From the NCBI RefSeq assembly GCF_008367235.1, contig NZ_VTZS01000004.1, positions 372,001 through 436,000 on the forward strand: a DNA stretch of 64,000 nt, given 5' to 3'. This DNA comes from Pareuzebyella sediminis (lineage in GTDB: Bacteria; Bacteroidota; Bacteroidia; Flavobacteriales; Flavobacteriaceae). Made by a program: the position numbers and the translations under genes. Below, piece after piece: positions 13,046 through 54,804 of the stretch (within the stretch, counting starts at the first letter, position 1; each line of letters opens with the position of its first letter). The notes below the pieces were generated by a model. The model did not search any database and was not told where the DNA came from. It worked only from the letters and a program-made list of their open reading frames with translations.

Positions 13046-15088
13046 TTAAGGCTTAATCAATTGGTTCAAAACTTCATCCGTTTGAGTTACGGGAAGCTTG
13101 CACGCTCCCTTTTGGCAAACAAAAATTGAAGTTTTTTCTTCAGAATACCTGTCTTTGAAAAGAGAGAGGTTGCCGTTCTTTTCAGAAGCTGCCAAAATAG
13201 CGTTTGGCAAATAGTGTGCACCTAGTACCCCTCCCCTTTTTTGAAACGCATCACCGACTACTGCTATTTCATAAAAAGGGTATTGGTTGAATAAACCAAG
13301 TTGCAACCAATTCGCATAGCTTTGGGCATTGTTCGTGATATTTTCACGTACATTTTTTAATTGCTGTGTCGCTATAGCTTCATAATTGCTTTCTGGAAAG
13401 AAGCGCGATAGTTTGAAGAGGTTCTTGGCCATTATCGAATTTGAGGCCGGAATAACGTTGTCGGTTACTTCGATGGTCCTTCGTATGATGAAATCGTCAT
13501 CTTTGGAGGTAAAGAAGAACATGCCACTATCTATGTCTAGGAATTTATCTAGGCAATAGTCAACCAATCTTTGTGCGCGAAATAACCAATCTTCATCAAA
13601 GCTGACCTCATACAGTCCGATGAAAGCGGAAATAACGGAGGCATAATCTTCTAAATAAGCATTTATGGTGCTTTTTCCATCGTTATGATTATGGTATAGG
13701 CCTCCTTCTGCCTGTAGTAGATTTTGAACAATAAAATGGCCATTTTTAAGGGCTAGATCAAGAAAATTCTCATCCTTAAGATATCTATAAGCATCGGTGA
13801 GCCCCTCGAGCATTAATCCGTTCCAAGAGGTAAGTATTTTATCGTCGAGTCGGGGTCTTTTTCTTTTTAAACGCTCTCCCTGCAATATAGTGGTACATTT
13901 GTCGATGATTCCGACCAATTCATTAACGGTAATAGAATGCTTTTCGGCAATACTCTCTTTAGATGCATTGCGAATCAACACATAATTGTCGTGTTCCCAA
14001 TATCCATAGCTATTAATATTAAAATAGTCTTTGAAAATGACGAAACGATCCTTTAAAAGTATTTTTAGGTCATGCTCTTTCCAGACATAATACGCACCTT
14101 CCTCGAGTTTACCGGATTCTGAGAGGCTATCTGCATCTAAGGAAGAATAAAAACCATGTTGTTGATTCATGAGCTCATTTTTTACAAAATCAACGGATTG
14201 GATAACCACCTCTTTGTACAGCTCACGTTTTGTAAGTGCGTAGGCTTTAGCATAAAGACTTACCATTTGGCCATTATCGTACAGCATTTTTTCGAAATGG
14301 GGAATATGCCATTTCATATCGACCGAATAGCGCGAGAATCCGCCTCCTATATGGTCAAAAACGCCGCCCCAAGCGATTTTGGTAAGTGAGGTATTTACGT
14401 ATTCAAGTAGCCTCCTATTCGGTTTGACCCAAGCATAATGTAATAACAAGTTTAAATTTACGGGCATCATAAATTTTGGGGCACGATTGTAGCCGCCCAT
14501 ATCCGTATCAAAATAACTAGACCAGTTCGTAATGGCCGTATCGATTTCCTCTCGGGTTAAGAGAGTTGAGTCACTTTTTTTTTCTATGAGATTGATCGCC
14601 TGAATGCCGTCGGCCATATTTTGGGCATATTCCAATATCTTTGCAGGGTCCTCTTTGTACAAATGGGCTAACTGATTTAGGATTTTGATCCAGTTCTCCT
14701 TTTTAACATAGGTTGCCCCCCAAAAAGGTCTCCCGTCCGGTAGGGCTACGATATTCAACGGCCAGCCCCCACTACCGGTCATCATCTGAAGGGCGTCCAT
14801 ATAAATATGGTCAATGTCGGGCCGTTCTTCGCGATCGATTTTTACATTGATGAAATGGGTGTTCATTACTTCGGCAACAGCATGATCTTCAAAACATTCG
14901 TGTTCCATTACATGACACCAATGACAGGCCGCATACCCAATACTAATAAGTAATAATTTATTCTTAGTTTCTGCTTCCTTTAGAATTTCTGTACTCCAAG
15001 CGTGCCAGTCTACTGGGTTGTGGGCATGTTGAAGTAAATAGGGACTGGTTTCATTAATAAGTGCATTAGTATGGGAATGACTCATCAT
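13046..15088 (-). CDS. Thioredoxin-domain protein of the YyaL/SSP411 (DUF255) family
   Basis: A 680-residue cytosolic protein with an N-terminal thioredoxin-like domain and a C-terminal (alpha/alpha)6 barrel like that of glycosidases and epimerases. Hallmarks are NPVDWHAW near residue 25, ACHWCHVMEHE with Cys55 and Cys58, REERPDID, and later GGVFDHIGGGFSRYSVD and MLYDNGQM. The biochemical role is unknown across the family despite wide conservation. Two ATG codons are adjacent (15088 and 15085); either may start. Confidence 0.9.
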   Translation of the reverse strand: MMSHSHTNALINETSPYLLQHAHNPVDWHAWSTEILKEAETKNKLLLISIGYAACHWCHVMEHECFEDHAVAEVMNTHFINVKIDREERPDIDHIYMDALQMMTGSGGWPLNIVALPDGRPFWGATYVKKENWIKILNQLAHLYKEDPAKILEYAQNMADGIQAINLIEKKSDSTLLTREEIDTAITNWSSYFDTDMGGYNRAPKFMMPVNLNLLLHYAWVKPNRRLLEYVNTSLTKIAWGGVFDHIGGGFSRYSVDMKWHIPHFEKMLYDNGQMVSLYAKAYALTKRELYKEVVIQSVDFVKNELMNQQHGFYSSLDADSLSESGKLEEGAYYVWKEHDLKILLKDRFVIFKDYFNINSYGYWEHDNYVLIRNASKESIAEKHSITVNELVGIIDKCTTILQGERLKRKRPRLDDKILTSWNGLMLEGLTDAYRYLKDENFLDLALKNGHFIVQNLLQAEGGLYHNHNDGKSTINAYLEDYASVISAFIGLYEVSFDEDWLFRAQRLVDYCLDKFLDIDSGMFFFTSKDDDFIIRRTIEVTDNVIPASNSIMAKNLFKLSRFFPESNYEAIATQQLKNVRENITNNAQSYANWLQLGLFNQYPFYEIAVVGDAFQKRGGVLGAHYLPNAILAASEKNGNLSLFKDRYSEEKTSIFVCQKGACKLPVTQTDEVLNQLIKP

Positions 15089-15180
15089 AACTGATTTTTG
15101 GTAACGTCGTAATGATTTGATATTCGATTAAATGGAAAGTGGCCTAATCTACCCTAAAATAACGTTAGATTTAGACGTAT

Positions 15181-15217
15181 AAAAAAAGCATCCTAAGATA
15201 TTCGGATGCTTTTTTTT
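15181..15217 (-). terminator. Hairpin terminator after dodecin gene
   Basis: GCATCC (15188-15193) pairs with GGATGC (15204-15209), flanked by A- and T-runs on both sides, so it can work in either direction. It lies just downstream of the dodecin gene on the minus strand and ahead of the YyaL-type gene. Confidence 0.85.
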
Positions 15218-15234
15218 GATGTACTTATCGGCCT

Positions 15235-15435
15235 TTATTTCACTTCGAAGGTTATTTTTACATTCACCCGATAATTGTCGATTTTACCATCGGTTACCGT
15301 GGCACTTTGTTCGTTGATATAAACAGACTTGATGTTCTTCACCGATTTGGACGCTTCTGAGAGGGCGTTTTTTGCCGCATCTTCCCAGCTTTTATCAGAA
15401 TTTGCTAATATTTCAATAACTTTTAAAACTGCCAT
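15235..15435 (-). CDS. Dodecin family flavin-binding protein
   Basis: A 66-residue protein matching dodecin, a dodecameric hollow-sphere protein that binds flavins or CoA. The pattern VIEILANSDKSWEDAAKNAL, followed by KNIKSVYINEQSATV and the closing YRVNVKITFEV, is characteristic. It probably stores or buffers FMN or riboflavin. The conserved Trp that stacks on flavin is present (SWEDA). It is a single-gene unit with its own terminator. Confidence 0.92.
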   Translation of the reverse strand: MAVLKVIEILANSDKSWEDAAKNALSEASKSVKNIKSVYINEQSATVTDGKIDNYRVNVKITFEVK

Positions 15436-44101: not shown

Positions 44102-44122
44102 GTGGGAATAACGCATCCAACC

Positions 44123-44723
44123 ATGTTTGAACAGGAAGAACTTAGTCCGTATTTTATGTTATGCATGACAATATTTTCCCCTTTTCTCTTCGTAGCGCCA
44201 TTGACGATTGCGGTGGCCATGAACGCCGCATTTCCCAGAATTTGCTATCAAAAGGATGTCGGTAGCGTCAATGCGGATGATTACTTTTTTATTAGAAGCA
44301 AGGAAGGTGGAAAAAAGGGTTGGTATTGGGGTTTATTATCCTTGGTCTTGCTGTTATAGGAATGCTATTGTGTGGCTTTGGGCTTATTTATTTCATTGTA
44401 CCAATAGCATTAATTCCGGCTATTCATGTTTTAATGAAGAACTCACCGCCCTTGAAATAACCAAGGCAAGTTTTAAATGGGGCGGCAAAAATTGGGTGGT
44501 CATATTCGGATTGATCATTGTGACGGGCATTGTAGCGGAGTTAGGCCTTGTAGGTTGGGGTATCAGAATATTATTTACGGCCATGCTCTCCAAAATACCG
44601 ATCTATTTTATCCATAAAGAAGGGGTAGAATCACCAAATGGAGATGGAAGTTATTCTTATTTTTTTGGGTTAAACGCAACGCTTGGTTCTAATATGCATC
44701 TTATGTTTAAAACAACCCAATGA
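44123..44723 (+). pseudogene. Membrane-protein gene broken by two frameshifts
   Basis: Three consecutive frames each code for a membrane-protein segment that runs on sensibly from the last. Frame one (from ATG 44123) gives PYFMLCMTIFSPFLFVAPLT and runs to RSKEGG; the next frame continues KKGLVLGFIILGLAVIGML; the third continues NEELTALEITKASFKWGGKN and GWGIRILFTAMLSKIPIYFI. Each junction is repaired by adding one base: at the A-run 44311-44316 and at the T-run 44429-44432. Repaired, it would code about 200 residues with five hydrophobic segments. Family uncertain. It is either a decayed gene or carries homopolymer sequencing errors. Its end overlaps the region just before the lipoprotein gene. 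Confidence 0.72.
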
Positions 44724-46152: not shown

Positions 46153-48639
46153 ATGGCCAAAAATTTAGTGATAGTGGAGTCGCCCGCAAAGGCAAAGACG
46201 ATAGAAAAGTTCTTGGGAAAGGATTATAAGGTAGAGTCAAGTTTTGGACATATAGCCGATTTGCCATCAAAAGAACTTGGGGTCGATGTTGACAATGATT
46301 TTGAACCCAAATATATCGTTGACAAAGACAAAAAGGCCTTGGTAAAAAAGCTAAAAGACCTGGCAAATAAGGCCGATACGATTTGGTTGGCGAGTGATGA
46401 AGATCGTGAGGGGGAAGCTATTTCATGGCATTTGGCCGAAACCTTAAAGCTTGATAAGAGCAAAACCAGACGTATCGTCTTCAACTCGATCACAAAATCC
46501 GCCATTCAAAAGGCCATTGAAAATCCTAGGGAAATCAATTACAATCTAGTTAATGCCCAACAGGCAAGAAGGGTGCTTGACAGATTGGTCGGCTATGAAC
46601 TTTCGCCCGTATTATGGAAAAAAATTAAACCTGGCCTTTCGGCAGGTAGGGTGCAATCGGTGGCGGTTCGCCTAATCGTTGAGCGAGAAAGGGATGTTGA
46701 GGCCTTTAGCCCTCAAGCTTCTTTTCGTATATCTGCCGAATTCAAGACTGAGGAAGGCCATAGTTTTACGGCCAAATTAAATAAGACGTTCGTTTCTAAA
46801 GAAGAAGCCAATGATTTTCTAAAGAAAAATATCGGAGCTAATTTTTCTGTCGGAAGTCTAGACAAAAAGCCTGCGAAGAAATCGCCGTCTGCTCCTTTTA
46901 CGACTTCGACCCTTCAACAGGAAGCTTCGAGAAAACTTTATTTTTCGGTGGGCCGTACCATGCAAGTGGCCCAGAGGCTCTATGAGGCTGGTCTAATCAC
47001 CTATATGAGAACGGATAGCGTGAACCTTTCTGGCGAGGCCATCAACGCCGCAAAGTCTGCTATCGTTAACAATTACGGTGAAAAGTATAGCACGGTAAGA
47101 AATTTCAAGGGAAAGTCTAAAGGTGCTCAGGAGGCTCACGAGGCTATCAGACCCACTGACATAACAAATCAATCGCCTTCATTGGAAAGGGACCAATCGA
47201 AATTATACGAACTCATCTGGAAAAGAACCATTGCCTCGCAAATGAGCGACGCAGAATTGGAACGGACCAATGTGAAGGTTAAAGCCGATACACATGAGGA
47301 AGAATTCACTGCCAATGGAGAGGTCATAAAGTTTGATGGTTTTCTCAAGGTATATTTAGAAGGTTTGGATGATGAGGATATGGTCGAGGAGCAAGAGGGC
47401 ATGTTACCATCGATGAAGATGGGAGAGGCCCTTGAAAACCTATTTATTACGGCGACCGAACGTTTTTCGAGACCTCCCTATCGCTTTACAGAAGCTTCTT
47501 TGGTTAAGAAATTGGAAGAGCTTGGCATTGGTAGACCATCTACTTATGCGCCCACAATTTCGACAATTCAGAATCGGGGCTACATCGAAAAGGGCACCGT
47601 AGAAGGTACGGAAAGAAATTACGTGCAGTTACTCTTGGAAAGCGAGACCATTAAAGAGAAGCAACTTTCAGAGACCGTAGGTTCCGAAAAAGGGAAATTG
47701 GTGCCAACAGACATAGGAATGATTGTCAACGACTTTTTGGTGAGTCACTTTGCCAATATTCTTGATTATAATTTTACCGCAAAGGTAGAGGAAGATTTTG
47801 ATGAGATTGCAGAGGGTGATGAAGATTGGCAAAAGGTAATGAAAAGCTTTTACAAGGATTTTCACCCTAACGTAGTCGATGTAGAAGAGAATGCCGATAG
47901 GGCCAGTGGTGAACGTGTTTTGGGTGAGGATCCGAAAACGGGTAGACAAGTGGCCGTTCGCTTAGGGCGTTTTGGGCCTATGGTGCAGATAGGTACGGTA
48001 GATGACGAAGAGAAACCCAAGTTCGCTAGCCTATTACCAGAGCAATCCTTGAATACCATCACCTATGATGAGGCTATGGAGCTTTTCAAATTGCCGAGAT
48101 CACTTGGAGAATATGAGGGTGAGGAAATAGAAGCCAACGTAGGAAGGTTCGGGCCTTATGTACGGTTTGGTAAAAAATTTGTTTCCTTAGGCAAGGGAGA
48201 AAGTGCTTTTGATATCGATTATGATCGGGCCGTCGAATTGATTAAAGAGAAGCAGAAAGCAGATGCTCCGATATATCACTATGAAGATAAAGAGGTGACC
48301 AAGGGTAAGGGTAGGTTCGGCCCATTCATTAAATGGGACGGAATGTTCATCAATGTCAACAAGAAGTACGATTTTGAAAATCTATCCGAAGCGGACATAA
48401 TCGAGCTTATCGAGGCGAAGAAACAGAAAGAATTGGATAAAGTGGTTCAAAACTGGCCTGATGAAGGTATCCGCATTGAAAAGGCACGTTGGGGTCGCCA
48501 TAACATTATAAAGGGAAAGACCAAGGTAGAGTTGGCCAAAACGGTAGATGCGGCCAAAATGTCTTTGGACGAGGCAAAGGCGCTATTGGAAAAAAAGGCG
48601 CCTAAGAAAAAAACGAGGTCTAAGGCGAAGAAGAAGTAA
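46153..48639 (+). CDS. topA: DNA topoisomerase I
   Basis: An 828-residue type IA topoisomerase that relaxes negative supercoils. Toprim domain at the start (VESPAKAKTIEKFLG; DEDREGEAI), catalytic Tyr284 in ITYMRTDSV, and the conserved EAHEAIRPTD. The C-terminal third carries repeated GRFGP modules (about residues 598, 660 and 719: LGRFGPMVQIG, VGRFGPYVRFG, KGRFGPFIKWDG) in place of the Cys zinc fingers of E. coli TopA. The last 30 residues form a basic Lys/Ala-rich tail (KKAPKKKTRSKAKKK). Confidence 0.97.
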   Translation: MAKNLVIVESPAKAKTIEKFLGKDYKVESSFGHIADLPSKELGVDVDNDFEPKYIVDKDKKALVKKLKDLANKADTIWLASDEDREGEAISWHLAETLKLDKSKTRRIVFNSITKSAIQKAIENPREINYNLVNAQQARRVLDRLVGYELSPVLWKKIKPGLSAGRVQSVAVRLIVERERDVEAFSPQASFRISAEFKTEEGHSFTAKLNKTFVSKEEANDFLKKNIGANFSVGSLDKKPAKKSPSAPFTTSTLQQEASRKLYFSVGRTMQVAQRLYEAGLITYMRTDSVNLSGEAINAAKSAIVNNYGEKYSTVRNFKGKSKGAQEAHEAIRPTDITNQSPSLERDQSKLYELIWKRTIASQMSDAELERTNVKVKADTHEEEFTANGEVIKFDGFLKVYLEGLDDEDMVEEQEGMLPSMKMGEALENLFITATERFSRPPYRFTEASLVKKLEELGIGRPSTYAPTISTIQNRGYIEKGTVEGTERNYVQLLLESETIKEKQLSETVGSEKGKLVPTDIGMIVNDFLVSHFANILDYNFTAKVEEDFDEIAEGDEDWQKVMKSFYKDFHPNVVDVEENADRASGERVLGEDPKTGRQVAVRLGRFGPMVQIGTVDDEEKPKFASLLPEQSLNTITYDEAMELFKLPRSLGEYEGEEIEANVGRFGPYVRFGKKFVSLGKGESAFDIDYDRAVELIKEKQKADAPIYHYEDKEVTKGKGRFGPFIKWDGMFINVNKKYDFENLSEADIIELIEAKKQKELDKVVQNWPDEGIRIEKARWGRHNIIKGKTKVELAKTVDAAKMSLDEAKALLEKKAPKKKTRSKAKKK

Positions 48640-48720: not shown

Positions 48721-49878
48721 ATGGTATTAGATTTTTTGGTGCCCGTGGAAGATAGGGTTTTGGCCCACTGTGAATTACTCCCATCCCAAGCCCTCGGCAA
48801 ACACATTAAAATTCATAATAAAAAGGAAGGGCTACCTGATACAACTAATATTTCAATAGCCTTGCTAGGGGTTAAGGAATCAAGGAATGCCTTTGAGAAG
48901 AAACACGAAATACTAGATGTTTCCGCCATACGAATACAACTTTACAAATTGCTATTGGGCAATTGGAATTCTACCTTGGCCGATATGGGCGATATTGAAG
49001 AGGGTGCCACTGTTGAAGATACTTATTTTGTAGTGCGGAAAACGGTAGCTTCGCTTTTAAAGCAAAAGATAATACCCATAATTATTGGTGCGACCCAAGA
49101 TATTACCTACCCTGCTTATAGAGCCTTCGATGGGATCAAAGATCTGGTCAATTTGGTCGCTATAGATAGTCGATTTGATTTTGGGATGGATGATGAGCTT
49201 ATTTCCTCCCATTCCTACATGAGCAAAATCATTACGGAAAAGCCAAACAACCTATTTAATTTTTCGAACATCGGGTATCAAAGTTACTTCAATGCCCAAG
49301 AGGAAGTCGATTTGATGGAGCGTCTTTTTTTTGATGCCTATCGGTTGGGCGAACTGGGCGCCGACATTGCTTTGGCAGAGCCCATTATGAGAAATGCCCA
49401 TATGATAAGCATGGATGCAAGGGCTATTAGAGCTAGCGAAATTGGTCTATCCGATAATTTTTCCCCAAACGGTTTCACGGGGAGGGAAATCTGTGCGATT
49501 GCCAGATATGCCGGTATTAGTGATAAGGTAAGTGTTTTTGGTATTTACGAAATGGAGAATGCCGCGCAGTCGGCACAATTGATGGCTCAGATTATATGGT
49601 ATTTTATTGAGGGTTTCAATTTTCGAATCTCGGAGTCTCCCTTTGAAGACCCTGCAAATTTCACTAAATATAATGTTCCGACCGATACGGAACAGCTTAT
49701 CTTTCATAAAAGTCATCTTACCGATCGGTGGTGGGTAGAGGTGCCTTCGATTCTATCCCCACATACTAAATCAAAATCACCTGCGTTATTACCCTGCACA
49801 AAAAAGGACTATTTGGAAGCATGCGACCAAAATATTCCTGAACGGTGGTTAAAGGCCTATAAAAAAGGATTTAACTAG
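48721..49878 (+). CDS. Arginase/formimidoylglutamase-fold protein with lost metal ligands
   Basis: A 385-residue protein of the ureohydrolase fold, commonly labelled formimidoylglutamase in flavobacteria. The family's metal-binding motifs are changed: GGDHS is GATQD (residues 123-127, ligand His to Gln126), DAHxD is DSRFD (149-153, His to Arg151), and the SxDxDxxDP motif is SMDARAIRASE (Asp232 kept, second Asp to Arg234). Three of six manganese ligands are gone, so arginase-type hydrolysis is unlikely. It sits just upstream of gldK, which hints at a role with type IX secretion or gliding. Confidence 0.82.
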   Translation: MVLDFLVPVEDRVLAHCELLPSQALGKHIKIHNKKEGLPDTTNISIALLGVKESRNAFEKKHEILDVSAIRIQLYKLLLGNWNSTLADMGDIEEGATVEDTYFVVRKTVASLLKQKIIPIIIGATQDITYPAYRAFDGIKDLVNLVAIDSRFDFGMDDELISSHSYMSKIITEKPNNLFNFSNIGYQSYFNAQEEVDLMERLFFDAYRLGELGADIALAEPIMRNAHMISMDARAIRASEIGLSDNFSPNGFTGREICAIARYAGISDKVSVFGIYEMENAAQSAQLMAQIIWYFIEGFNFRISESPFEDPANFTKYNVPTDTEQLIFHKSHLTDRWWVEVPSILSPHTKSKSPALLPCTKKDYLEACDQNIPERWLKAYKKGFN

Positions 49879-50069: not shown

Positions 50070-51425
50070 ATGAAGAAGCTATTGTTGTCATCTATAGCGT
50101 TTGTTTTTTTACTCAGTAGTTGTGGGTCAAGAACAAAGGGAGAGCTAGTCGGAGCCCAAGGTAAAAAATGGTATCCGGAAAGACCATACGGAATGGAACT
50201 TATTCCAAGGGGGTCTTTTATAATGGGTAAAGCCGAGGAAGACCAAGCGAAGCTCCTAAACGCACCAACCAAGACCGTTACGGTCAGATCGTTCTATATG
50301 GATGATACCGAAATTACGAACAGTGAATACCGACAGTTCGTAGAATGGGTAAAAGATTCCATAACCCGCACCAGATTGGCTATATTGGCCGATGAACTTG
50401 GACTCGGGCCAGAAGATGGGGGAATTGGAGACTATGCCTTTAAGGATGCCGATACCACAAAGCTTTCTGCCTACGACAAATATATGCTGGACAATTACGC
50501 AGGTATGGGCGAAACAGGTTTTGAAGGAAGGGCCCTTAACAAGGATGAAGAACTTGTGTGGGATATTTCTGAATATCCCGACGAATACTATACCGAAGTG
50601 ATGGACTCGCTATATATTCCTGAAGAAGAATCGTATAATGGGCAGCGCACCATAGATGTGACCAAGCTAAAATACAAATACAGTTGGATGGATATCGAGG
50701 CTGCCGCAAGATCTAAAACGGGCCGAAGAAAAGATTTTATTCGTCAAGAAGAGCTTGAAGTATATCCTGATACAACAGTTTGGATCCGTGATTTTGAATA
50801 CTCCTACAATGAACCCATGCACAACGATTACTTTTGGCACGATGCCTATAGCGATTATCCTGTGGTCGGTGTATCTTGGGACCAAGCCAGGGCCTTCTGT
50901 AATTGGAGGACCAAATTCAAGAACGATGATCAAAAAAGTAGGGGCAAGCAATTCGTGAACCAGTTTAGATTACCTACGGAAGCTGAGTGGGAATATGCCG
51001 CAAGGGGTGGTATCGAAGGTGGTACATATCCTTGGGGGGGACCCTACGTAATCAGTGACACCGGTTGTTTTATGGCAAACTTTAAGCCACAGCGGGGTGA
51101 TTACGCTGCCGATGCGGCACTGTACACCGTAGAGGCCAAGTCTTATGAACCGAATGATTTTAACTTGTATAACATGGCTGGTAATGTTTCTGAGTGGACG
51201 AATTCCAGTTACGACCCCAATTCTTATGAGTTTGTTTCTACGATGAACCCCAACGGAGGCGATGGAGCAAATGCAAGAAAGGTTATTCGCGGAGGTTCTT
51301 GGAAAGATGTGGCTTATTTCCTTCAGGTAAGTACAAGGGATTATGAATACGCTGATTCTGCACGGAGTTACATCGGGTTCAGAACGGTACAAGACTATAT
51401 GGGTGAGGAAGATTCGACCCAATAA
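50070..51425 (+). CDS. gldK: Type IX secretion / gliding lipoprotein GldK (PorK)
   Basis: A 451-residue outer-membrane lipoprotein (lipobox FLLSSCGSR, Cys19) with a formylglycine-generating-enzyme-like fold: GMELIPRGSFIMG near the start, and RLPTEAEWEYAARGG and NVSEWTNSSYDPN late. With GldN it forms the periplasmic ring of the type IX secretion system, which moves proteins such as adhesins across the outer membrane. First gene of gldKLMN. Confidence 0.96.
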   Translation: MKKLLLSSIAFVFLLSSCGSRTKGELVGAQGKKWYPERPYGMELIPRGSFIMGKAEEDQAKLLNAPTKTVTVRSFYMDDTEITNSEYRQFVEWVKDSITRTRLAILADELGLGPEDGGIGDYAFKDADTTKLSAYDKYMLDNYAGMGETGFEGRALNKDEELVWDISEYPDEYYTEVMDSLYIPEEESYNGQRTIDVTKLKYKYSWMDIEAAARSKTGRRKDFIRQEELEVYPDTTVWIRDFEYSYNEPMHNDYFWHDAYSDYPVVGVSWDQARAFCNWRTKFKNDDQKSRGKQFVNQFRLPTEAEWEYAARGGIEGGTYPWGGPYVISDTGCFMANFKPQRGDYAADAALYTVEAKSYEPNDFNLYNMAGNVSEWTNSSYDPNSYEFVSTMNPNGGDGANARKVIRGGSWKDVAYFLQVSTRDYEYADSARSYIGFRTVQDYMGEEDSTQ

Positions 51426-51571: not shown

Positions 51572-52222
51572 ATGGCACAGTCAAAATCAACAAAGAAATT
51601 ATTTAACATGGCCTATGGCCTTGGTGCGTCGGTCGTAATCATCGGGGCTTTGTTCAAAATACTTCACTGGGAGTTTGGTCCCCTTACAGGTGGTCTTCTT
51701 CTTGCTGTAGGTCTTATTACGGAAGCATTAATTTTTGCGATCAGTGCATTCGAACCGGTAGACGACGAATACGATTGGTCTTTGGTATATCCTGAATTGG
51801 CCGGTGGTCAGTCGAACGGTAGAAGCAACGAGCTTGCTGAAATTAAGGAAGCCGAAACTTCTTTATCTGCTAAATTAGATGATTTATTGAAAGAAGCTGG
51901 TGTGGATGCCAACTTGATGGAAAGCCTTGGGTCTAGCATCCGTAATTTCGAAGGCGCGGCAAAAGGTATTGCCCCAACGGTGGACGCTATGGAGTCTACA
52001 AAGAAATATTCCGATGAAATGGTTCAAGCCGCAGCTCAGATGGAATCTTTGAACAGTCTTTATAAAGTACAATTGGAGAGTGCTAGCCGTCAAGCCTCTA
52101 TCAACGAAGAAGTAGTACAAAATGCAGGTGCCCTTAAGGAACAAATGGCTTCCTTGGCTACCAATCTTTCTTCCTTAAACGGAGTATACGGAGGTATGCT
52201 TACCGCTATGAACAGAAACTAA
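51572..52222 (+). CDS. gldL: Type IX secretion / gliding motor protein GldL
   Basis: A 216-residue inner-membrane protein with two transmembrane helices (about 13-30 and 38-59) and a long cytoplasmic tail with coiled-coil potential. Lys29 in the first helix and Glu51 in the second match the conserved Lys/Glu pair (27 and 49 in F. johnsoniae) thought to conduct protons. With GldM it is the proton-driven rotary motor that powers secretion and gliding. Confidence 0.96.
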   Translation: MAQSKSTKKLFNMAYGLGASVVIIGALFKILHWEFGPLTGGLLLAVGLITEALIFAISAFEPVDDEYDWSLVYPELAGGQSNGRSNELAEIKEAETSLSAKLDDLLKEAGVDANLMESLGSSIRNFEGAAKGIAPTVDAMESTKKYSDEMVQAAAQMESLNSLYKVQLESASRQASINEEVVQNAGALKEQMASLATNLSSLNGVYGGMLTAMNRN

Positions 52223-52282: not shown

Positions 52283-53842
52283 ATGGCAGGAGGAAAACAA
52301 ACACCACGTCAGAAGATGATCAACCTAATGTATCTGATCTTCATCGCGATGTTGGCACTGAACATGAGTAAGGAAGTTCTAGCGGCTTTCGGATTGATGA
52401 ACGAAAAGCTAGAAGCTTCAAATAGCAAGGCTACCGAAAGCAATGAAGCTTTCTTGGCAAGTCTTGAGACAAAAGCATCGGAAGACGCCGCCAAATACCA
52501 AAAGGTGTATCAAGATGCCCAGAGAATCAAACAATTATCACAGGAGTACTACGACTATCTCCAAAACCTAAAGGAAGGTATGTTGGAAGATGTGGAAGAC
52601 CCGCAAGATTATGTGGTCATGGATAAGTCTGATTTTCTGGATCAAAAATTCTTTCAGGGGGATAACCTTACTCCGGAAGGGGAAGAATTTGTTAACCGTA
52701 TCAATAATTACCGTAGTGAAATTGCAAAAGTACTGCCCGAAAATATGAAAAGTGCAGTAGAGACAAGATTCAGTACTGGCGATGAAAACGGTAAAATTGA
52801 AAAACGAGATGGTACCAAGCAAGACTGGATCAATTACAACTATGAAGGCTTTCCTTTAGTAGCCTCTTTGACAAAATTGACCGCTTTGCAGAACGATATC
52901 AAGAATACCGAAGAAGATGCCTTGAAAACCATGTTGCAAGGTGAGTTGACGAGTCAGGTATCGCTTTCTAATTTTTCTACATTATTGGAATCTGAAAAGA
53001 ACGCGTTTTATGCGGGCGACCGATTTCAAGGGGATATTGTATTGGGCAAAACGGACAAATCCGCAAAACCTGTACGCGCCGAGTTGACTTTAGACGGTAG
53101 AAAACTATCGGAAGGCAAAGACTATAAACTGAAGGAAGGTGGTGTTGAAATGATGATCGGTGCTGGAAACCCAGGGGATCATGAAATTTCAGGTACCTTG
53201 ATTTATATGCAAGATGGTGTCGAGACCGAAGTTCCGGTGAAGAATACGTTCTCTACTATCAGCAAACCGAATTCCGCATTGATTGCTGCTGACAAGATGA
53301 ACGTAGTATACCGAGGTGTGGCCAATCCTATGACCATCTCTATCCCAGGTATTCCCAGTAACAAAGTAAATGCCTCGGCTCCTGGTCTGAAATCCGTTAG
53401 TGGTAGTAAGTATATCATGAATCCAGGTACAGGAAGAACGGTAACGATTACTGCTTCAGGAAAATTGCCGGATGGTCAGAGTGTATCTTCCAAGTCTGAA
53501 TTTAGAATTAAGGATATTCCTCGTCCGGCCGGTACCGTGAGTAAACAAGATGGTACGGTGAAATTACCTAGAGGTAACGTTGAAATCGCGACTATTGGTG
53601 CGATGCTTGAGGATTTCGATTTTGATCTGAACCTTGCCGTTAGCGGCTTTAAGTTCAAAGTTCCTGGTCAACCTACCGTAAGTGTCAACGGAGATAAGTT
53701 GAACGGTATGGCCAAGAATGCCTTGAAAAGAGCTAAGAGAGGCGATGTAGTTCAAATCTTCGATATCGAAGCTTTCATTACCAACAACAAGAGTTATAAA
53801 TTGAAGAAAGTATCTCCGGTCGTTGTGGAGATCACAAACTAA
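52283..53842 (+). CDS. gldM: Type IX secretion / gliding motor protein GldM
   Basis: A 519-residue protein with one N-terminal transmembrane helix (INLMYLIFIAMLALNMSKEV, near residues 13-29) and a long periplasmic part of several domains, reaching the GldK/GldN ring. The C-terminus ends in KLKKVSPVVVEITN. It passes motor torque from GldL to the outer membrane. It lies 60 bases after gldL. Confidence 0.96.
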   Translation: MAGGKQTPRQKMINLMYLIFIAMLALNMSKEVLAAFGLMNEKLEASNSKATESNEAFLASLETKASEDAAKYQKVYQDAQRIKQLSQEYYDYLQNLKEGMLEDVEDPQDYVVMDKSDFLDQKFFQGDNLTPEGEEFVNRINNYRSEIAKVLPENMKSAVETRFSTGDENGKIEKRDGTKQDWINYNYEGFPLVASLTKLTALQNDIKNTEEDALKTMLQGELTSQVSLSNFSTLLESEKNAFYAGDRFQGDIVLGKTDKSAKPVRAELTLDGRKLSEGKDYKLKEGGVEMMIGAGNPGDHEISGTLIYMQDGVETEVPVKNTFSTISKPNSALIAADKMNVVYRGVANPMTISIPGIPSNKVNASAPGLKSVSGSKYIMNPGTGRTVTITASGKLPDGQSVSSKSEFRIKDIPRPAGTVSKQDGTVKLPRGNVEIATIGAMLEDFDFDLNLAVSGFKFKVPGQPTVSVNGDKLNGMAKNALKRAKRGDVVQIFDIEAFITNNKSYKLKKVSPVVVEITN

Positions 53843-53901: not shown

Positions 53902-54804
53902 ATGAATTGGAAAAATGTATTACTAATCGGAGCAGTCACATTGTTGCCTGTTTCCCTCATGGCTCAGGCGAATATCTTGAACGCCAAAAAGCCTGAGGAA
54001 ATCGGTATGAAAACCGAGGCACAAAAAGCTTTGGATAATGATGCTCCCCTAGAGTACGGTTATGTTGATGACCGTGATATTCTTTGGTCAAAAACCGTAT
54101 GGGAGGTTATCGATTTAGATGAAAGGGTAAATTTTCCTTTGTATTACCCAACCGATACCATTGATATCGGAAATAATAGAAGGTCACTATATGATGTGTT
54201 ATTAAAAAACATTAAAAACGGCAAGTTGGAAGATGTATACGCGGATTCCTATTTCACCGAAAAAAGGAAGTTCAGCGACCTTACCGCAACCCTGCAAAAA
54301 GTCGACACGACCGATTATGGGTATGAGCAAATCAACGCTGGTGAAGAACTATCTCCTGAATATGTTATCAGAAGAAATCTGACGGCAGCCGATATCGAAG
54401 AGTATCGCATAAAAGGGATGTGGTATTTCGACAAGCGCCAAGGTGAGCTTAAATATCGATTACTGGGAATTGCCCCTGTTGCTCCCGATGTAAACTTTAT
54501 TGACGATGAATCAATGGCTCCAGCCGATGCGAAAGTAGAATTGTTCTGGGTCTGGTATCCTGATGCAAGAGAGATTTTACACGAGGCGAAAGTATTTAAT
54601 CAGCGAAATTCAGCTCAGCCAATATCTTTTGATATGTTGTTGAATGCTAGAAGGTTCGATGCAATTATCTACAGGGAAGACAACGTACACGGAGATCGTG
54701 AAGTGAACGACTATATTTCAGATAATGCCTTGTTTCAATTGTTGGAGGCCAACAGGATCAAGGAAACAATTCGCGATCGCGAACAAGATATGTGGGCATA
54801 TTAA
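53902..54804 (+). CDS. gldN: Type IX secretion / gliding protein GldN (PorN)
   Basis: A 300-residue exported protein with a signal peptide (LLPVSLMAQA). It matches GldN: YGYVDDRDILWSKTVWEVID, YPTDTIDIGNNRRSLYDVL, and LFWVWYPDAREILHEAKVFN. It joins GldK in the periplasmic ring of the type IX system. It is the last gene of the locus, closed by a strong terminator. Confidence 0.96.
   Translation: MNWKNVLLIGAVTLLPVSLMAQANILNAKKPEEIGMKTEAQKALDNDAPLEYGYVDDRDILWSKTVWEVIDLDERVNFPLYYPTDTIDIGNNRRSLYDVLLKNIKNGKLEDVYADSYFTEKRKFSDLTATLQKVDTTDYGYEQINAGEELSPEYVIRRNLTAADIEEYRIKGMWYFDKRQGELKYRLLGIAPVAPDVNFIDDESMAPADAKVELFWVWYPDAREILHEAKVFNQRNSAQPISFDMLLNARRFDAIIYREDNVHGDREVNDYISDNALFQLLEANRIKETIRDREQDMWAY

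Follow-up and report, generated by a model that had tools for sequence, protein, structure and literature searches.

A class-wide family of ureohydrolase-like proteins without the binuclear metal site, encoded beside gldKLMN in Bacteroidota

INTRODUCTION

The arginase-like protein of T. brucei, described by Hai and co-workers in 2015, reportedly adopts the arginase fold without a binuclear manganese cluster. In the type IX secretion system (T9SS), GldK/PorK is an established ring lipoprotein, and it is presented as a repurposed FGE fold in the title of PMC12421860. A ligand-stripped chain has also been described in MefH, where the beta chain is a ureohydrolase in which four of the six ligands are replaced and which carries no metal (PMC11399263).

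Here we analyze a gene of Pareuzebyella sediminis (Bacteroidota; Bacteroidia; Flavobacteriales; Flavobacteriaceae) that lies between topA and gldKLMN and encodes a protein we refer to as a pseudo-ureohydrolase. The window is the whole stretch of DNA analyzed, 64,000 nucleotides of contig NZ_VTZS01000004.1 (positions 372,001 to 436,000), and all coordinates below refer to it. Our literature search returned no study of this family, and a text search of a few T9SS papers returned no mention of arginase or hydrolase. We take Fjoh_1852 to be a gene number for the pseudo-ureohydrolase gene, an assignment that may be wrong. Almost all members of a large bacterial class carry the gene, and it sits within the operon neighborhood of a much-studied secretion and gliding motor. 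If it acts on the GldKLMN motor, it is a missing part; if it does not, it is a core gene of obscure purpose, and naming it after an enzyme would mislead metabolic models.

RESULTS

The ureohydrolase fold is kept and the metal site is lost

The Pfam Arginase profile (PF00491) matches residues 83–294 of the protein (Table 1) at 35.8 bits, above the curated cut-off of 22. An AlphaFold2 model built from 38 sequences has a ureohydrolase core (pLDDT 78, pTM 0.79), for which Foldseek gave HutG of B. subtilis (3.1e-15) and metformin hydrolase as best matches. The best VIA-align match was T. cruzi formiminoglutamase, with a Z of 31.8 and an rmsd of 2.2 over 267 aligned residues (19–303 of the model); all VIA-align rows shown are ureohydrolases, and other families may also match. 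By profile and structural score the protein thus belongs to the superfamily in fold and descent. It does not qualify as a ureohydrolase enzyme, since a site that should read H, D, H, D, D, D aligns as Q126, D149, R151, D153, D232 and R234. Nor is it a HutG enzyme by score, reaching 35.3 bits with TIGR01227 against an equivalog cut-off of 229.15, and we rejected an identity as HutG or agmatinase on profile score and ligands. Inspection of the sequence showed no hydrophobic stretch at the N terminus. A promoter scan gave five promoter-like matches where 8.2 were expected, which is no excess, and a terminator scan gave nothing decisive.

Table 1. Features of the pseudo-ureohydrolase locus (window coordinates)
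Feature	Position	Strand	Detail
topA, upstream neighbor	46153..48639	+	
Pseudo-ureohydrolase gene	48721..49878	+	ATG start, 385 aa plus stop; intact ORF
Codon 126, Gln for first His ligand	49096..49098	+	Q 179, H 9, other 6 (194 homologues)
Codons 149–153, D-S-R-F-D for DxHxD; Arg151 replaces His ligand	49165..49179	+	
Codons 208–258: R208, E220-P221, R224, N250-G251, C258	49342..49494	+	98–100% of 194
Codons 232–234, D-A-R for DxD; Arg234 replaces Asp	49414..49422	+	
C-terminal extension, codons 304–385, RWW and PC..DY motifs	49630..49875	+	Alignments, models; absent from the ureohydrolases compared
gldK	50070..51425	+	TIGR03525, 608.9 bits
gldL	51572..52222	+	TIGR03513, 232.8 bits
gldM	52283..53842	+	TIGR03517, 458.1 bits
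gldN	53902..54804	+	TIGR03523, 283.5 bits

The 4.9 Mb P. sediminis genome (G000) has a second PF00491 gene (L031; 210 bits), which passes the agmatinase cut-off and has the ligands HDHDDD when aligned with the pseudo-ureohydrolase. A pairing of this canonical agmatinase with the pseudo-ureohydrolase as the non-catalytic subunit of a heteromeric enzyme, on the pattern of MefH alpha/beta, would have a precedent in the beta chain with its four replaced ligands (PMC11399263). The two genes stand on different contigs, however, and we regard such a pairing as very improbable.

Ligand loss extends across the family

Of 60 related genomes, 54 contain a relative, and 80 public loci were kept, including those of Zobellia, Maribacter, Robiginitalea and Flavobacterium. 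A homologue is present in 166 of the 216 genomes of the order and in 281 of the 296 genomes of the class at E ≤ 1e-3, or 273 at E ≤ 1e-40 (the latter counted by eye). Eight of the class matches are weaker than 1e-40 (G116, G148, G150, G190, G240, G333, G350 and G342) and could represent either ordinary ureohydrolases or degenerate members of the family; in two cases, G240 (L226) and G190 (L227), the locus carries the extension motifs. The ORFs at L226 and L227 (family f75; 277 and 351 aa) are shortened or strongly diverged with the C-terminal RWW and PC motifs kept, and are perhaps decaying members or members with a misread start. A sample of 148 genomes from the phylum gave matches in 77, of which 40 lie outside the class. 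The best outside match reached 9.3e-44 and, among the matches listed, none extends beyond position 327 of the 388-position profile, so that none of these shows the C-terminal extension.

We counted the ligands kept in 194 distinct homologues, a set that leaves out L031, L032, L133, L141 and identical proteins. Four ligands are kept in 10, three in 172, two in nine and one in three; none of the 194 has five or six. Position 151 is Arg in 97, Lys in 44 and His in two, and position 234 is Asp in only three. The preliminary description had claimed that the ureohydrolase fold is kept while three of the six metal ligands are replaced, by Gln126, Arg151 and Arg234. The PF00491 match and the predicted core agree with the first part, the positions read as claimed, and the replacement proves to be family-wide, the whole family having lost the binuclear metal site.

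Part of the site persists. Gln or His at position 126 is found in 188 of the 194 homologues, D149 in 190, D153 in 182 and D232 in 191, and because the three aspartates are each present in 94–98% of the family, a single metal could still bind in most members. These four positions presumably correspond to site A of the binuclear center, and their retention is what favors the alternative that the protein is still an enzyme, with one metal at the former site A and a new chemistry. Against this stands family f5, which we guess to be Weeksellaceae. In all 12 of its genomes examined (rows L115/L222, L122 and L243–L252) the ligand positions read N-S-(I/V/S)-S-N-D, five of the six having been lost, and L127 likewise has one ligand left. 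All four positions are lost in these proteins, yet the gene and most conserved residues are kept, which makes a single-metal enzyme quite unlikely.

A second conserved residue set and a C-terminal extension

A different set of residues, Q187, R208, E220, R224, G251, C258, W293, G298, W337, W338 and C359, is conserved in 99–100% of the 194 homologues. The f5 proteins and L127 retain Q187, R208, E220, R224, C258, W293, W337 and C359 despite having one ligand. Conservation of the set is not absolute, since two class families, f62 (L228) and f75 (L226), carry Ser at position 208 and Thr at 258. The last 80 residues of the P. sediminis protein are predicted by AlphaFold2 to form a beta-meander and two helices; folded alone, the extension gave a low-confidence model (pLDDT 71, pTM 0.59) with no structural match at E ≤ 0.001.

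Five HutG-like proteins from outside the class (L224, L225 and L229–L231) have five or six ligands and share Q187. R208 is found in none of these five, which also lack the RWW and PC motifs and the extension, and the whole set occurs in none of them. E220 is present in three, and P221, R224, C258 and W293 in one each, so the set is only partly family-specific. These outgroup statements refer to the alignment that gave the tree; a second outgroup alignment differs around positions 208–262. In the tree, the family stands apart from every ureohydrolase sampled, with a support of 0.999, and the HutG-like group falls on the same side of the agmatinases as the family. Judged by sequence, the nearest sampled canonical relatives are HutG-like.

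The gene is linked to gldK and also to topA

The preliminary description had noted a conserved-looking place just upstream of gldKLMN, and this was borne out: gldK lies downstream of the gene in 80 of 80 public loci. Among 40 regions from other families (L164–L203), gldK is the next gene on the same strand in 30, is not in eight, and two regions reach a contig end; these regions were hand-picked from the strongest matches listed and therefore favor typical members. The genetic linkage to gldKLMN expected of a T9SS component is thus found in both samples. The order topA–gene–(porP/sprF)–gldKLMN is kept in many families. Outside the P. sediminis family, wide gaps between the gene and gldK contain one ORF of more than 200 aa in 54 of 56 cases, usually PorP/SprF; two such genes were identified (L113 and L165). 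Two gldN-like ORFs were also seen in L113, L164, L176, L179 and L184, and Flavobacterium sp. L108 has two consecutive gldN-type genes after gldM (13172–15354), as gldN/gldO would be.

Synteny was rejected as proof of a T9SS function, since topA shares the conserved order and stands closer to the gene than gldK does. With L001, L032 and L141 left out, the median distance is 24 nt to topA (n = 183 loci) and 122 nt to a directly adjacent gldK (n = 122). The gene stands away from gldK in families f5, f34, f40, f53, f54 and f63 and in one genome of the P. sediminis family. Its neighbors there include an epimerase, a Mur ligase, a glycosyltransferase, a ResA-like protein, RmuC and an ABC transporter, and no T9SS gene or common theme was found among those tested. 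Further upstream in the window, two overlapping plus-strand ORFs in different frames (44102–44359 and 44256–44723) resemble halves of one membrane protein, which points to a frameshift or a pseudogene immediately before the gene for the LVIVD protein.

Co-occurrence with GldM and GldN is strong and incomplete

Across the 296 class genomes, 278 have both the gene and GldM, three have the gene only, nine have GldM only and six have neither. The preliminary description had made co-occurrence with gldKLMN a point on which its proposal could fail, and the 278 genomes speak for it. In the order, where two listings were compared, the gene never occurs without GldM, whereas GldM occurs alone in three genomes and 47 have neither; in G048 GldM is accompanied by a gene match of only 4.7e-13. 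These totals look like strong linkage, but the gene and GldM are rarely lost together, and genome reduction confounds those cases. Double absences are mostly those of very small genomes, in the order mainly 0.6-Mb genomes of one family, or of f46, whose GldM-bearing members also lack the gene.

The exceptions run in both directions. Nine of the 287 GldM-bearing class genomes have no match of any kind to the gene (G213, G237, G157, G331, G348, G258, G271, G308 and G076, all with GldM and GldN), so it is not present wherever the T9SS is. Conversely, in family f53 the gene is found in 111 of 111 genomes and GldM in 107. The remaining four (G284, G657, G730 and G745, each 99% complete) keep the gene without GldM and GldN, so it does not occur only with the T9SS. 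Two drafts with the gene and without GldM/GldN, G114 (95% complete) and G324 (91%), were not counted as losses.

The four f53 copies are full length with conserved residues intact, and they occupy four separate places in the gene tree, each beside GldM-bearing species. GldN is present in four control genomes from the same two genera. Because gldM and gldN are adjacent, both could vanish together through one missing contig; a check with the SprA profile found SprA in just one of the four controls, missed it in three and was therefore uninformative. With close relatives keeping both genes, f53 has apparently undergone four independent losses of GldM and GldN, making these genomes useful natural T9SS knock-outs. 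The losses could be recent. To the nearest sampled relative, pN is 0.08–0.21 with pS saturated, so that omega cannot be computed. Three findings led us to reject the idea of a functionless remnant: conservation throughout the family, uninterrupted frames in the aligned loci, and a pN that is low while pS is saturated.

Evolutionary rate follows gldK–N

Evolutionary rates were compared in two ways, with topA as the clock in five gene sets and with a four-gene clock combined with a cubic fit. With the topA clock, covariation between the gene and gldK was 0.53–0.84 across the five sets, compared with 0.12–0.41 between gldK and five control genes (dao, a MiaB-like protein, an ABC-F protein, an LVIVD protein and a 191-aa fragment) and −0.28 to 0.50 between the gene and those controls. 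With the four-gene clock, 27 non-redundant loci of 47 gave rate-residual values of 0.82, 0.72, 0.76 and 0.72 against gldK, gldL, gldM and gldN, and −0.13 against dao; in the same 27 loci the gld genes gave 0.78–0.88 among themselves. Within one clade (30 loci) the values fell to 0.40, 0.28, 0.45 and 0.15, with 0.11 against dao, and in other families (40 loci, no control) they were 0.65, 0.46, 0.45 and 0.48. Since the permutation test ignores phylogeny, rate covariation is a hint and no proof. It hints that the sequence of the gene evolves at a rate that follows gldK–N more than control genes do, with few controls and a weaker signal within one clade.

Taken at face value, the conserved adjacency to gldK, the joint presence with GldM in 278 of 296 class genomes and a covariation with gldK–N that almost equals that of the gld genes with one another would suit a dedicated non-catalytic component or regulator of the T9SS or gliding machine, such as a factor in the cytoplasm that acts on GldL/GldM or on GldK biogenesis. 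We nevertheless consider a dedicated component unlikely. The gene is intact in four genomes without GldM/GldN, is missing from nine that have both and is apart from gldK in eight of 40 regions, and the double absences are mostly those of very small genomes or f46.

DISCUSSION

We favor, with a probability of roughly 60%, the interpretation that the class-wide pseudo-ureohydrolase is a cytoplasmic binding or adaptor protein that is tied to the T9SS/gliding machine where this is present and is not a dedicated part of it. Three observations lead to this choice: the loss of the metal site, the tie to the gld genes and persistence without GldM/GldN. The first, together with the survival of the gene and its other residues in f5 after ligand loss, argues that the protein has ceased to act as a ureohydrolase. 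Its place beside gldK and the rate covariation point to a functional tie to the GldKLMN machine, and the intact gene where GldM and GldN are gone points to a function wider than the T9SS. Hydrolysis of guanidino or formimidoyl compounds would thereby have been lost. The protein would be located in the cytoplasm, judging from its N terminus, and would hold a ligand or protein partner through its conserved residues and C-terminal extension. Where a T9SS/gliding machine is present, it would evolve in step with GldK–N and probably support assembly, energizing or regulation.

The non-catalytic part in type IX secretion or gliding proposed in the preliminary description therefore survives in modified form. 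Absence of the metal site, gldK adjacency and rate covariation uphold it, whereas confinement to the T9SS does not stand, given the four f53 genomes that keep the gene, the nine GldM/GldN genomes without it and several families with the gene away from gldK and no T9SS gene beside it. A more specific idea, which we put forward tentatively, is that the protein is a cytoplasmic accessory factor or regulator of the Bacteroidota envelope motor, in which the reshaped pocket might sense a metabolite or bind a partner and so adjust GldKLMN assembly or drive; a second role would explain survival without the motor. The genomes that keep the gene without GldM/GldN allow a motor part to be separated directly from a wider role.

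Among known systems, HutG (TIGR01227; B. subtilis 3m1r, T. cruzi FIG 4mxr/2a0m) has the same fold and supplies the nearest sampled sequence relatives. HutG-like proteins share Q187 with the pseudo-ureohydrolase, which differs in its lost metal ligands and in having the C-terminal extension, R208 and the RWW and PC motifs. The T. brucei arginase-like protein (4rhm/4rhi) is similar in that it reportedly combines an arginase fold with the absence of a binuclear manganese cluster, and the mutations in the 4rhm title (S149D/R151H/S153D/S226D) imply Arg at the His position of DxHxD, as in the pseudo-ureohydrolase. It is a protozoan and not a bacterial protein, and it is not known to be linked to secretion genes or to have a comparable extension. 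MefH beta/MfmB is likewise a ligand-stripped ureohydrolase chain and was matched structurally by our model in Foldseek and VIA-align; its active partner comes from the same operon, whereas none is adjacent to the pseudo-ureohydrolase gene. GldK/PorK, encoded by the neighboring gene, offers an example of an enzyme fold reused in the T9SS; it is an established ring lipoprotein of that system, whereas the pseudo-ureohydrolase is at most a putative part.
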